Assembly: GCA_002840535.1 (NCBI GenBank)
Contig: PHBH01000029.1
Location: 1 to 64,000 of the forward strand
Length of the DNA stretch: 64,000 nucleotides
Direction of reading: 5' to 3'
Source of the DNA: Deltaproteobacteria bacterium HGW-Deltaproteobacteria-15
Lineage (GTDB): Bacteria > Desulfobacterota > DSM-4660 > Desulfatiglandales > HGW-15
The notes under the pieces are model-generated. The model was not told the origin of the DNA, did no database searches, and saw nothing but the letters and a program-made list of their open reading frames with translations. Positions 16,992 through 24,892 of this stretch are shown here, piece after piece (the first letter of the stretch is position 1; every line of letters starts with the position of its first letter). Both the position numbers and the translations under genes were made by a program.

Positions 16992-17741
16992 TCAAACCGA
17001 TCTGATCGAATGGGTGGCTTTCAATGTCTCCCATAAGCGCCGGATGATGACTGCGGACGCCTCGTAAAGCTCAATCCGGTCTTTGCCGGAATATTGACGG
17101 CACGATTCCAACAGGGCTGAACTCCCCAACCATAGCCTGATCCTTCCTTGAATAGCTCGTCCAAGCGGAGGATCAAGGCGCAGAAGATCCTGCTCCTTCA
17201 TCTTTGCGATAGAAGCTTTTTCTTTTAAAGGAAGAGCCGATGAGAGCCTCTCAACGGCTTCTTCCAGTGAGCGGGGGGAAGACTGCTCGATGACGAGCCT
17301 CAGAAGCTTCTTCGCGTCCTCATAGATGTTGGAATCTTCGCTGGCACGAGGGCCTGCCACGTTCAGTACCTTGATTTCCCTCGCATCGATCCAATTCGCT
17401 GCCGCGGCGGCAGCTTCAGTGAATCCGAGTTCGCGCAGATCGATATGCAGGCAAGGTTTTCTGTGCTTTGCCGCCAGGGCTCTTGCGACAGCCGTTCCGC
17501 CGATCAGTTTCCCATGGGAGATGATCAGCGTGCCGTCTGAATCGATGATATTCATCAGCGTTCTTTGAAAATAGCTGATGGATGAGACCTCCTTCACAAG
17601 ATATTGATCCGGCAGCCTGCCTTCTTCTGTTTTCCTGCCTCTGGGCACCCAACCGCCGTGCGGAATTGCCAGCTCTATCGCCACATCTAGCCCGGCGCGG
17701 TCGGCCCCTGTTTGCCCGCCTGATACGATCTTTTCAATCAT
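16992..17741 (-). CDS. Putative molybdenum carrier-like protein with C-terminal DUF6794-like domain
   Basis: A 249-residue protein. Residues 1-150 match the MoCo-carrier/LOG-like Rossmann fold (IVSGGQTGADRAGLDVAI at the N-terminus, then GTLIISHGKLIGGTAVARAL near residue 70). Residues 155-240 (SPRSLEEAVERLSSALPLKE, then LGRAIQGRIRLWLG and YEASAVIIRRLWETL) resemble the DUF6794 helical domain. Members of the first family bind molybdenum cofactor or nucleotides; a role here is inferred only. It overlaps the upstream ferritin-like gene by four bases (ATGA), so the two are co-translated. Confidence 0.75.
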   Translation of the reverse strand: MIEKIVSGGQTGADRAGLDVAIELAIPHGGWVPRGRKTEEGRLPDQYLVKEVSSISYFQRTLMNIIDSDGTLIISHGKLIGGTAVARALAAKHRKPCLHIDLRELGFTEAAAAAANWIDAREIKVLNVAGPRASEDSNIYEDAKKLLRLVIEQSSPRSLEEAVERLSSALPLKEKASIAKMKEQDLLRLDPPLGRAIQGRIRLWLGSSALLESCRQYSGKDRIELYEASAVIIRRLWETLKATHSIRSV

Positions 17742-18241
17742 CTCCGGGGCTCTGATTTCGATAATGAGTGTTTCAGGCTATCGACCTTCATTTTCAGGCT
17801 GTCCCGATGATCAAACGTCTCCTTCATGATGGCGGAGGAGAGGTCCTGAAATTCCAGATCCTTCGATTTTACAATCTCGAAATAACGTGTTTCGAGTACC
17901 GAGTTTTCCAGGTCCATAGCAAGGAAAAAGGGCTTGGTATCCAGCAGCCGCCCTTCCTTAAGATCGGCGATATTCCGTCTTATATAGGAAATAATGGTTT
18001 TAAGCGCCACGGTATTGAAGGGCCTTCCGGCCTCGAAGCGATCCGGTCTCGACTTGACAATCTCCGAGATCCTGCGAATGTTCTCCGCGTGCAGTTTTTC
18101 CGTTTCAGCCAGTGCGTGCCAGAATGAAGAGTCTTTTTGAGTGAATTCAGAGCACGTCTGATAAAATTCAGCGAGAGCAAGCTCATTCTCGATCATGATC
18201 TCGAAAACCGAAAGAAGCATCGGCACGTTGATGGGCGCCAT
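17738..18241 (-). CDS. Ferritin-like/rubrerythrin-type di-iron domain protein
   Basis: A 167-residue four-helix protein. ENELALAEFY, EKLHAENIRRI, ENSVLETRYFE and MKETFDHRDSL carry Glu and His residues at the spacing of rubrerythrin-type di-iron carboxylate sites. There is no rubredoxin domain. Such proteins handle peroxide or store or sense iron in anaerobes. The start at 18241 follows AAGGAG by six bases; the longer open frame to 18442 runs through non-coding sequence. It is the first gene of a two-gene unit with the MoCo-carrier-like gene. Metal content is inferred from the motifs. Confidence 0.75.
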   Translation of the reverse strand: MAPINVPMLLSVFEIMIENELALAEFYQTCSEFTQKDSSFWHALAETEKLHAENIRRISEIVKSRPDRFEAGRPFNTVALKTIISYIRRNIADLKEGRLLDTKPFFLAMDLENSVLETRYFEIVKSKDLEFQDLSSAIMKETFDHRDSLKMKVDSLKHSLSKSEPRR

Positions 18242-18510
18242 CCGGTCTCCTTTTCCCAGCGGGGCGGGAATCGAAAATTCGACGATTCTGTTGTATATCA
18301 CATTTTCTTCGCTTGAGAGAAAATGAAACAATAAATATCCGACCCCCACAGGGACCGGCTTTGATGCACCCCGAAGGGGTGAAGTTTGTGGCGCTAGCTC
18401 AACCGATCGGCTTGAGGTTGGTAGGGACCAATTCCGTCCCATGTGCTATAAGGCAGGAGTCGGCGGATTAGAGTCGCAAATGAATCCGAAGTGGATGAGA
18501 GGTGTATTCC

Positions 18511-20276: not shown

Positions 20277-20894
20277 TCATACTGGCTCGCCAGGCCGGGC
20301 AGCTCCGGCCAGCCACTCCTTGCCTTCTGCGTAGAGCTTCTCCACGGCCGGCCCGCGAAGACCGGGAAGACCCTCCTTTACCTTGAACCCGTTCTTCGAT
20401 TGCAGATAGCCCAGGTGCTTATATCCTTCCGGGAAACGGCTGAGCACTTTGCCGTCGAGATGGAGAACCGCAGCCGGGTCGACCGGGACGATCCAGTCCT
20501 TTTCGTAGATCGGCTGCCGCCGGACAATGGCCCAGCGGCCTTCCCGCTTGTCGAAGAAATCATAGAACCGGCCCATGCACGAAACATCCACAGGCATGCC
20601 GTCCAACAATGCACGCTGATATATAGTCATTTTCGTTTGGGAGATCGCTCTGGTTCCGGCAATGTCACATGTCCACCCTCCGAGCAGGTGCAGAATATTC
20701 ACTCCCTTATTAAAGCCTTCACGGCTCACTTCGATGAACTCCCGTGCAGGTCCCTGAAACCAGGTGGCCGTCATCCAGCCGTCCGGGTGCCACACGGTTG
20801 CAAAGCGTTCCCAGTCCCCGGAGTCGCGGTACAAAACCCAATTTTCCACGACTTCACGAATTGCGAGTTTTTCGCCGGTCAAGACATCGAGCAT
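20277..20894 (-). CDS. NTF2/SnoaL-like domain protein
   Basis: A 205-residue protein. The first 130 residues fit the cone-shaped NTF2-like fold (IREVVENWVLYRDSGDWERF, HPDGWMTATWFQG, SCMGRFYDFFDK), used by many small dehydratases, isomerases and ligand-binding proteins. The C-terminal 70 residues extend the family core. It has no signal peptide. AAGGAGAGG upstream supports the ATG at 20894 rather than the longer frame. Catalytic residues typical of scytalone dehydratase or SnoaL are not obvious, so the function is open. Confidence 0.8.
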   Translation of the reverse strand: MLDVLTGEKLAIREVVENWVLYRDSGDWERFATVWHPDGWMTATWFQGPAREFIEVSREGFNKGVNILHLLGGWTCDIAGTRAISQTKMTIYQRALLDGMPVDVSCMGRFYDFFDKREGRWAIVRRQPIYEKDWIVPVDPAAVLHLDGKVLSRFPEGYKHLGYLQSKNGFKVKEGLPGLRGPAVEKLYAEGKEWLAGAARPGEPV

Positions 20895-21296
20895 GGTTCC
20901 TCTCCTTCCCTGGTATTCGACTTTCAGTAACACCTTAGCTTTATGAAACAAAGAGCTGATGAGGTCGGGCCTGCGCCCAATTTCAAAGAGCTCCTAAGAA
21001 ACTTCATTTCAGGTTTCAGTGTTCAGGTGTCAGAAAACTGATGAACTACTTTGCTGACACCCGACACCCGACACCTACAGAGTTTCTTTCATCTATAAGC
21101 CTGGCGCCTGGCGCCGGGGTTGGTTGCTAAAGTGTTACGACTTTCAAAGGGGATCTTTTAAAGCGCATTATACAATTTCCCCGACAAAGGCAAAGAACAA
21201 ATAACCCCAATGCAAGGAGAGTGGAGTGGATGCGGGACTTCACTTGTGGTACGGTATGAAGTGATCGAAATTCCGCCAAGCATGAAGGAGCAAAAA
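20895..21296. other. Intergenic region with short tandem and inverted words
   Basis: About 400 bases. At 21003-21080 lie seven-base-step words (TTCAGGT / GTGTCAG, then CTGACACCCGACACCCGACA) arranged as an imperfect inverted repeat; 21100-21119 holds a GGCGCC palindrome. The remainder probably includes the promoter of the selenoprotein gene at 21297. No other gene seen. Confidence 0.5.
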
Positions 21297-21530
21297 ATGA
21301 CCAAGGACCAAATGAAGATTTCCATTACCTACTGCGGCGCCTGAAACTACTTTCCGCAAGCCTCCAGTCTGGCGGCCGCAATCTCAAAAGAGCTCGGGAT
21401 CGAGGCTGAGCTGATCCAGGGAAAGGGCGGGGTATTCGACGTGGTCGTGAATGACGATCTCGTTTTTTCCAAGAAGAAAGTGCACCGGTTTCCCCAGCAT
21501 GAAGAGATCCTCAGCAAGCTGCGAAAGTGA
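21297..21530 (+). CDS. SelW-like (Rdx family) selenoprotein, in-frame UGA read as selenocysteine
   Basis: A 77-residue thioredoxin-fold protein interrupted by TGA at 21342-21344. With that codon read as Sec (U), the start is MKISITYCGAUNYFPQASSL and the frame continues through KGGVFDVVVNDDLVFSKKKV to a TGA stop at 21528. The YCGAU motif is identical to the redox CxxU of animal selenoprotein W, and the following V-F-x-V-x-V and SKKK segments match the Rdx family in order and spacing. AAGGAG lies six bases before the ATG. A candidate SECIS hairpin follows the UGA. The protein is expected to be a cytoplasmic thiol/selenol oxidoreductase; its partner is unknown. Normal gene calling would miss it entirely. 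Confidence 0.88.
21360..21376 (+). promoter_or_regulatory. Candidate bacterial SECIS hairpin (SelW-like gene)
   Basis: GCCUCCA pairs with UGGCGGC with one U-C mismatch, leaving a three-base GUC loop. The loop G lies 23 bases after the UGA, inside the range known for bacterial SECIS elements, which also favour a G early in the apical loop. In bacteria SelB binds this hairpin to deliver Sec-tRNA. Confidence 0.6.
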
Positions 21531-21672: not shown

Positions 21673-22485
21673 TCATCCCTTCACCGCTCCCGCAGTCAAA
21701 CCTTCGACAATGCGTTTCTGAAACGCGAAAACTACCACGATGAGAGGAAGGGTCACTGTGACCGAGGCGGCCGCGATTTCTCCCCAGGGGATTTCATGCA
21801 CCCCGGGGAAGAGCGCAATGGCCACCGGAACGGTTCTCGACGCCTCTGTCGCCGTGAAGGTGAGGGCGAAGAGGAACTCATTCCAGGAGAAGATGAACAC
21901 GAGAATGGCCGTGGTGAAGAGACCGGGGAGCGAAAGGGGAAGCATGATGCGATAAAAACACTGGAAAGGCGAGCAACCGTCCACCCGTGCGGCGCGATGG
22001 ATTTCGTCGGGTATCTGTCTGAAAAAGTTCGTGAGGATCCATATCGAAAGAGGCAGAGAGAAGCTCGTGTAGGTCAGGACAAGCGCCCACAACGTATCGC
22101 GCAGCCCAAGTCCCCTGATGATCAGATAAAGGGGGCTGACTGTGGCAATAGGGGGAAACATGGATGCGGAGAGCACAAACCCAAGGACGGCGGCCTTGAA
22201 GGGCGTTCCCAGCTTGGCAAGAGCGAACGCGCAGAGGGAGCCGATGCCGAGGGAGAGTCCGGTGGTCATGGCAGCGACCCCTGCACTGTTGGCCATGCAC
22301 TTCACAAAAGACCGTTCGGCAAGCACAGAAATGTAATGATCCATGGTGAACCGGTCGGGCAGAATCGGGGGGAGTGTTGTAAGGATTTCGTTCGGCTTCA
22401 GGCTCGTCACAAGTTGCCAGAGCAGCGGGCCGAGGCAGAAAACACAGAGCATGAGGAGCATTGCGAAATGGGCCGGCCGTTTCAT
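21673..22485 (-). CDS. ABC transporter permease, MalG/UgpE-like (carbohydrate type)
   Basis: A 270-residue inner-membrane protein with six hydrophobic helices. The cytoplasmic EAA loop appears as EIHRAARVDGCSPFQCFYRI near residue 173, the docking site for the ATPase. It matches the second permease of CUT1 sugar or glycerol-phosphate importers (SFSLPLSIWILTNFFRQIP precedes the loop). It overlaps the upstream permease gene by four bases. The operon encodes binding protein, permease 1 and permease 2 but no ATP-binding subunit, so a shared ATPase elsewhere in the genome is expected. Confidence 0.9.
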   Translation of the reverse strand: MKRPAHFAMLLMLCVFCLGPLLWQLVTSLKPNEILTTLPPILPDRFTMDHYISVLAERSFVKCMANSAGVAAMTTGLSLGIGSLCAFALAKLGTPFKAAVLGFVLSASMFPPIATVSPLYLIIRGLGLRDTLWALVLTYTSFSLPLSIWILTNFFRQIPDEIHRAARVDGCSPFQCFYRIMLPLSLPGLFTTAILVFIFSWNEFLFALTFTATEASRTVPVAIALFPGVHEIPWGEIAAASVTVTLPLIVVVFAFQKRIVEGLTAGAVKG

Positions 22486-23333
22486 GCTGCAATCCCTCCC
22501 CGCAGCAGGCGCGCGTAGAAGAGACTGATCATCCCGACGCAGAGAAAAACCATGATCGCCAGGGTCGAGCCATAGCCGAACTGAAGCGTCTGGAAGAGCA
22601 TCTTGTATGCATAGATGGAAAGGGTCTCGGTGGTGTTGGCCGGACCGCCGCCGGTCAGAACATACACCGCGTCGAAGATCCTGAACGCGTCGAGGGTCCT
22701 GAAAGTGAGAACCACGAGGATTACGGGCTTCAGGAGGGGGAGGGTGATCCTCCTGAAGATGTCCAGGCTTCCTGCGCCGTCCACACGGGCCGCCTTGTAG
22801 AGCTCTCTTGGGATGACCTGCAGTCCTGCCATGAGGAGGATCGCCACAAAGGGCGTGGTTTTCCAGACATCCATGAACACCGCACCGTTCAGTGCCCAGA
22901 AGGGACTTCCCAACCAGTTGATGTCAGTCCCCAGCAGGTAGTTGAGGATTCCGAAATCGCTGTTGTACATCCATTCCCACATCTTTGCGGAGACCACCGT
23001 CGGGATTGCCCAGGGCACGAGGACAATCGCCCTGACAATGCCCCTCATGCGAAAAGCCTTGTCCAGGAGAACGGCAATGGCAAGGCCGAGAATGAGCTCA
23101 AGGGTGACCGATACGACCGTGAAGTAGAGCGTGTTCCGAAAGGCGTTCCAGAATCGCTCATCCCCGATGAGAAAGAGGTAGTTGTCCAGGCCGGTGAAAC
23201 GGCTGATCCCGAAGATGGGGAGTTTGCGGTGGAAGCTGAGGTACAACGCGTAGACAGCGGGGTAGACGGTGATCAATGCGATGAGGATGAGGGATGGAAC
23301 AATGAAGGGCGTGCCGTCATTGTGTCGTTTCAC
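22482..23333 (-). CDS. ABC transporter permease, MalF/UgpA-like (carbohydrate type)
   Basis: A 283-residue inner-membrane protein with six helices, the first permease of a CUT1-type importer. The EAA loop reads ELYKAARVDGAGSLDIFRRI near residue 199; VLVPWAIPTVVSAKMWEWMY and FMDVWKTTPFVAILLMAGLQ are further typical segments. The ATG overlaps the stop of the upstream binding-protein gene by four bases, and its own stop overlaps the next permease start, so all three are translationally coupled. The substrate is a sugar, polyol or similar solute by family; which one is unknown. Confidence 0.9.
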   Translation of the reverse strand: MKRHNDGTPFIVPSLILIALITVYPAVYALYLSFHRKLPIFGISRFTGLDNYLFLIGDERFWNAFRNTLYFTVVSVTLELILGLAIAVLLDKAFRMRGIVRAIVLVPWAIPTVVSAKMWEWMYNSDFGILNYLLGTDINWLGSPFWALNGAVFMDVWKTTPFVAILLMAGLQVIPRELYKAARVDGAGSLDIFRRITLPLLKPVILVVLTFRTLDAFRIFDAVYVLTGGGPANTTETLSIYAYKMLFQTLQFGYGSTLAIMVFLCVGMISLFYARLLRGGIAA

Positions 23334-24613
23334 CGGTCGGCCTCCAGGATGTGTTGGATCTGACGGCGGGTCGAGGCCAGAGCCGCTTCCGGACTCCTGA
23401 TTCCGGAGATGATCGCACTGAACTCGGGCTGCATCACCTGTGTCATCATCATGTAGTAAGGGGACACGGGGCGGGGTCTTGCCTTCATGAAGATGTCATG
23501 GAGGGAAACGATGAATGGCTGCATGGCCCTCAGCTCGGCATCCTGGTAAAGCGACCTGCGTGTGGGCTTGTAGCCGATGGTGATGGCGGCGGTTTTTTGA
23601 ACATCGGGCGAAGAAAGAAAGCGGACGAGCTTTTCCGCGGCCTCAGGATTTCTTGAGAAACGGTTTACACCCAATTGCCAGCCTCCCAGGGTCGATATGG
23701 GTGTTTTGCCGGGAAAGGAGGGGAGAGGCGCGATGCCGACTTTGCCCCGGAGGGGCGATCCTTCTGCATTATAGATATTCCACACGTACGGCCAATTGCG
23801 CATGAACAGGGCCCTTCCGTTCCCGAAGATATGCCTTGTCGGTTCCTCCATGGCCGTGGTGACGAGCGGGGGAGTGATTCCCGACTCGATGAGATTTCTC
23901 ATGAAGGCGGCAGCCTCCATGTTCTCCCTGCTGTCGATAACCAGACGGCCTTCTTTCAGGACATCGCCTCCGTTACCCCAGAAGAATTCGAGGACATTAC
24001 AAACGAGTCCCTCATATTGTTTCCCCTGCCAGATGTACCCATAGAGGTCCTTTTCCCGGGGCGTGATATGCTGTGCCGCTTCAACGAGTCCATTCCATGT
24101 CCTGGGAGGGGAAAAGCCGTATTTGTCCAGAAGGTCTTTCCTGTAATATAGCACCCCTGCATCGAGATACCAGGGAACGGCATACATCCGGCCCCTGTAG
24201 GTAACCGCTTCCATGGGGCCGGGGAAGAAATCGGACCTCTCCTGCTCGGAGGCCAGATGACTTAAATCCCTGATCCACCCTGCCCTGGCAAATTCCGGGA
24301 CCCATATGACATCCATGCTCAGGACGTCAAAATCAGAGGTTCTCCCCTCAAGATTGAGCGTGTAGAACTGGTGCTGCTCGTCGGTTGAAGCCGGAAGGGT
24401 CTCCTCCCTGACTGAAATTTCCGGATTCTCGGATTCAAACCGATCGAGAATCGCCCTGAAGATTGAGGGATCGCCGGAAATCTTACCATGCTTGAATACG
24501 ATGATACTCCTCGCAGCCTCTTCAGACGGACGTTTCCTTTCGCTGCATCCGATAAATAAGAGGAAGCAGAGAAGAGTAATTGCCGCGATGAAAATCGTGC
24601 TCCTGGTTCCCAT
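23330..24613 (-). CDS. ABC transporter extracellular solute-binding lipoprotein (carbohydrate type)
   Basis: About 427 residues. A lipoprotein signal peptide (TIFIAAITLLCFLLFIGC, lipid on the Cys) anchors it outside the inner membrane. The rest is a family-1 extracellular solute-binding protein: GKISGDPSIFRAILDRFE, DVLSMDVIWVPEFARAGWI, AVPWYLDAGVLYYRKDLLDK and STLGGWQLGVNRFSRNPEAA occur in the usual order. It captures a sugar-like ligand and passes it to the two permeases that follow. The start at 24613 keeps the signal peptide at the N-terminus; the frame is open further upstream but overlaps the region of the divergent LOG gene. Confidence 0.88.
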   Translation of the reverse strand: MGTRSTIFIAAITLLCFLLFIGCSERKRPSEEAARSIIVFKHGKISGDPSIFRAILDRFESENPEISVREETLPASTDEQHQFYTLNLEGRTSDFDVLSMDVIWVPEFARAGWIRDLSHLASEQERSDFFPGPMEAVTYRGRMYAVPWYLDAGVLYYRKDLLDKYGFSPPRTWNGLVEAAQHITPREKDLYGYIWQGKQYEGLVCNVLEFFWGNGGDVLKEGRLVIDSRENMEAAAFMRNLIESGITPPLVTTAMEEPTRHIFGNGRALFMRNWPYVWNIYNAEGSPLRGKVGIAPLPSFPGKTPISTLGGWQLGVNRFSRNPEAAEKLVRFLSSPDVQKTAAITIGYKPTRRSLYQDAELRAMQPFIVSLHDIFMKARPRPVSPYYMMMTQVMQPEFSAIISGIRSPEAALASTRRQIQHILEADR

Positions 24614-24892
24614 GCAAAAAGTATAGCAAAAGCGCTCTTTCGGGGGAACTTTTACCGTAGGAGTATGAAATCGTCTGGCGTTCACGACGCGTCAGGAAAG
24701 AACACGGATCTTGACAAATCCCAACCAGAAAACGGAAATCGGTGGGTAATGGGTTGGGGGGCGCTGCTTCTTGAAATGCCCCTTGGGGTGGCTATAACCA
24801 GATTGCGTTATTATCTTAAAACGAATGAAAGAAGAACGAAGGTGAAAGGCAATTCCAGGAAAGAAGAAAAGGGCTCCAAAGGAAAACCTCAA

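Follow-up and report, generated by a model that had tools for sequence, protein, structure and literature searches.

A predicted SelW-like selenoprotein gene with a conserved bacterial SECIS hairpin in a deltaproteobacterial genome

Bacterial SelW-like selenoproteins, which combine a CxxU motif with a bacterial SECIS element, were described between 2005 and 2008, including from Deltaproteobacteria (PMC1088965, PMC1794560, PMC2398784), and are among the most abundant bacterial selenoprotein families known (PMC1088965, PMC2398784). In the GOS set, they form the most numerous prokaryotic selenoprotein family, with the motif CxxU (PMC2398784). Members are known from Desulfotalea psychrophila, Geobacter sulfurreducens, Alkaliphilus, Desulfotomaculum, and Symbiobacterium, and Cys forms are very few or none in Sec-using organisms (PMC1794560). 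According to a review, the exact functions of the Rdx family, to which these proteins belong, are still unknown (PMC10650576).

The window, i.e., the whole stretch of 64,000 nucleotides analysed, contains a gene of this type, with the following parts and neighbours:

21297..21530, + strand: Rdx-family gene for a SelW-like selenoprotein of 77 aa, counting the UGA as Sec, with a TGA stop codon; profile matches
21285..21290, + strand: Shine-Dalgarno-like AAGGAG, seen in the sequence, with the ATG 6 bases further 3'
21333..21344, + strand: CxxU redox motif (Cys-Gly-Ala-Sec), both columns invariant in a 20-homologue alignment in which Sec is written as Cys
21342..21344, + strand: UGA codon, predicted Sec; 56 placed homologues have UGA at this position and 4 have TGT (Cys)
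21360..21376, + strand: predicted bacterial SECIS hairpin; 53 distinct homologues keep the register and show compensatory changes
20277-20951, opposite strand to the SelW-like gene: SnoaL-like protein, neighbour
21673-24685, opposite strand to the SelW-like gene: solute-binding-protein-dependent ABC transporter, neighbour

The frame opens with ATG, carries TGA as codon 16, and ends with a second TGA as codon 78 (21528-21530), the coding part of the read-through protein spanning 21297-21527; an alternative in-frame ATG at 21282 is possible and would overlap the ribosome site. An earlier note on this DNA had proposed that reading the TGA at 21342 as selenocysteine yields a complete 77-residue Rdx-family protein with a YCGAU motif, preceded by a ribosome site and missed by standard ORF calling. 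Frame, coordinates, stop, motif, and ribosome site are all found in the sequence as described, and plain ORF calling does overlook the gene. The same note called the selenoprotein SelW-like, which stands, and unannotatable, which does not, since Pfam and TIGRFAM models match once the UGA is read through.

The profile search proposed there, of the read-through protein against PF10262 (Rdx), returned 65.2 bits (cut-off 22.6, E 6e-18) with all 74 positions matched, and TIGR02174 (SelT/SelW/SelH) scored 57.6 bits, above its cut-off of 34.2. NF041051 (SelT/SelW/SelH family (seleno)protein, SelTWH_Campy) also matched over the whole length, but its score of 86.6 bits misses the equivalog cut-off of 88 bits by 1.4. 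In the alignment, the UGA falls precisely on the position where every placed homologue has UGA or Cys, one Gly paralogue excepted. By model and alignment, CGAU ends strand 8-13, and a GGVFDV segment is present that compares with the GxFE-type segment of the family. The AlphaFold2 model, with 20 homologues as input, reached a pLDDT of 89.6, and its best PDB match is 2fa8 (TM 0.87). The SelW-related structures 2fa8, 2obk, 2p0g, and 3dex rank first, followed by MIEN1 and mouse SelW (2npb), with thioredoxins lower; the profile search agrees with these matches and recovers 2npb at E 2e-7. Profile cut-offs (PF10262, TIGR02174), motif, and fold thus place the protein in the Rdx / SelT-SelW-SelH family, and at the level of sequence it agrees with the bacterial SelW-like family in every feature tested, except for the narrower NF041051 cut-off.

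Of 395 phylum genomes, 57 gave an Rdx match, 58 matches in total, of which 53 carry one in-frame TGA; a search of the class added four UGA-form genomes and one contig-edge fragment. One of the 53 (L064, G193:C32:38644-38853) also has a TAG inside the matched stretch, which could mark it as a pseudogene or stem from misassembly. The earlier note had named close relatives ending at this TGA as counter-evidence. Instead, about 57 same-phylum homologues have an in-frame UGA, which aligns to this column in every one of the 56 placed, and four others have TGT (Cys) there, so that the UGA aligns with Cys or UGA, as is required of a bacterial selenoprotein. The remaining exception is a tandem second SelW-like gene (L080, G396:C134:8898-9113), with GGA (Gly) where its neighbour has UGA; its hairpin pairing is no better than chance expectation, and decay or altered function following duplication is possible. 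The nearest homologues share 57-59% identity with the window protein, and the sole match in a peptide-pattern scan of contigs was one actinobacterial fragment.

Observations from a single genome can be errors, but a false stop arising in sequencing or assembly is refuted, since 56 homologues in other assemblies share both the codon and its alignment position, leaving it a negligible probability. A dying gene, in which a Cys codon (TGC or TGT) has mutated to TGA, would need one step only, and Cys homologues do exist. Against this, the same UGA is kept over dozens of families, and downstream of it changes pile up at third codon positions, as expected if that part is translated. Hairpin pairing, moreover, exceeds chance only where the UGA is present. 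A pseudogene is therefore very unlikely.

The predicted SECIS is the hairpin GCC-U-CCA-GUC-UGG-C-GGC, which begins at 21360, 15 bases past the UGA, and contains one U-C stem mismatch; its apical loop GUC (21367-21369) lies 22 bases past the UGA. It had been claimed in this position and with this loop, and it is present with its register conserved. Across 54 UGA homologues, a mean of 6.26 of 7 pairs is formed vs 4.46 in synonymous recodings (z 13.8, a value that treats related sequences as independent), and at least 6 pairs are formed in 96% of the UGA homologues vs 19% of the recodings. The three loop bases of the UGA homologues always start with GU or GG, while pairing in the Cys and Gly homologues is near the null value. 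Among 53 distinct rows, 89.5% of cells are paired, both-side changes occur in 45 cells vs 13.2 in shuffled alignments, and the covariation score is 0.389 vs 0.157, a value reached by none of 500 shuffles. Slid registers all score far below the true one, and RNAalifold recovers the same helix unprompted.

On its own, the window hairpin is only modestly above chance: its pairing gives p 0.03 against synonymous recoding, the 17-mer folds at -6.2 kcal/mol with 20 of 200 shuffles folding equally well, and a 61-base stretch folds no better than shuffles. By the same method, the upper stem-loop of E. coli fdhF, in what we take to be its sequence, folds at -4.2. Taken singly, the local fold is not above shuffles; it is the comparison of homologues that supports the hairpin. 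At a lax threshold, Rfam reported no SECIS family in the region, its single weak match being a chance one. As judged from sequence, the element qualifies as a bacterial SECIS, being a hairpin just downstream of the UGA, inside the coding region, with a small G-bearing loop; a SECIS model specific to the family could be built from the 53-sequence covariation set.

The assembly (6.98 Mb, 106 contigs, estimated contamination 7.9%) contains selA (619 bits), selB (391 bits), selD (378 bits), and a tRNA-Sec gene (73.6 bits) with anticodon TCA (UCA). All four genes that the earlier note proposed to look for are thus present, and the absence of selB and selC, which would have spoken against its reading, does not apply. 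Because the SelW gene and the sel genes lie on separate contigs, it is the binning that links them. SelD of the same genome has its own UGA within a GAGU motif, and at least two formate dehydrogenase alpha (FdhA) genes, the full-length L086 and L088, carry one in-frame TGA each. Both are expected selenoproteins, and since they too carry in-frame UGA, the genome appears to use Sec in at least three known families.

UGA is reassigned in some bacteria, and a rival reading has it decoded here as Cys, Trp, or another residue, whether through general suppression or a changed genetic code. This is extremely unlikely given the complete Sec machinery including a tRNA-Sec with a UCA anticodon, the in-frame UGA codons in FdhA and, at the established Sec site, in SelD, and the use of UGA as the SelW-like gene's own stop. 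We rejected the pseudogene, error, and altered-code readings on the conserved UGA column, the coding evolution, the Sec machinery, and the UGA stop.

With the gene, its family, the Sec-column position, the conserved hairpin, and a complete Sec machinery all present in the sequence, the best explanation is almost certainly a single-gene SelW-family selenoprotein with SECIS-directed Sec insertion. This single-gene unit would produce a small thioredoxin-like SelW-family protein. SelB carrying selenocysteyl-tRNA(Sec) would bind the hairpin just 3' of the UGA and insert Sec, giving the active site Cys-Gly-Ala-Sec, and the second UGA would stop translation. Sec is probably inserted in the source organism.

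The gene stands alone between opposite-strand genes. Five flanking genes were looked for in the fetched homologue loci and none turned up there, so gene neighbourhood gives no clue to what the protein does, and function has to be deduced from the family. Membership suggests thiol/selenol oxidoreductase action, with a glutathione- or thioredoxin-type thiol as the likely partner. A scan of the window for further Cys-adjacent UGA codons with a hairpin yielded no other convincing case; judged by the look of their sequence, the candidates that scored higher do not seem to be coding. Elsewhere in the window (16992-18442, minus strand) lies a circularly permuted YpsA SLOG protein with a DUF6794 tail, adjoined by a 234-aa protein without a Pfam match.

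Among the 85 genomes of the class searched, selB occurs in 66 and an Rdx match in only 6, which makes the SelW-like gene patchy; it is patchy inside the window's own family as well. In a tree built on 79 columns, with many forks unresolved, the copies from the window's family and order (L012, L013, L011, and L028) are scattered relative to the window. Two other copies from the window's family cluster with other families, and among the four one groups with family f58 and another with f17 and others. This scatter suggests transfer, or misbinned contigs and binning noise. That the SelW-like gene is, within this lineage, a mobile selenium-dependent redox accessory, exchanged among distant families of the phylum as a solo gene with built-in SECIS, is an unlikely reading.

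The YCGAU motif, presumably identical to that of animal SelW, is a true likeness, but the special weight given to it in the earlier note was overstated, the motif being shared family-wide and SelW-like proteins being abundant in bacteria. Animal SelW (2npb) has the same family and thioredoxin-like fold and is remote in sequence; its SECIS lies in the 3' UTR, whereas that of the window gene would lie inside the coding region. The solved bacterial SelW-related proteins 2fa8, 2obk, 2p0g, and 3dex share the fold (TM about 0.87); 2fa8 has CxxC where the window protein has CxxU, and with CxxC in place of CxxU, as seen for 2fa8, such proteins need no SECIS. The gene adds a well-supported member of a kind that plain ORF calling misses, and, since the exact function of the Rdx family is still unknown (PMC10650576), a small bacterial member encoded on its own could be used as a test system, although the find changes no view. 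The observation is correct but ordinary, because bacterial SelW-like selenoproteins are already well known. With the same CxxU, the same Rdx family, and a SECIS right after the UGA, the window gene is a further member of that group, with no defining difference and only its host lineage new.
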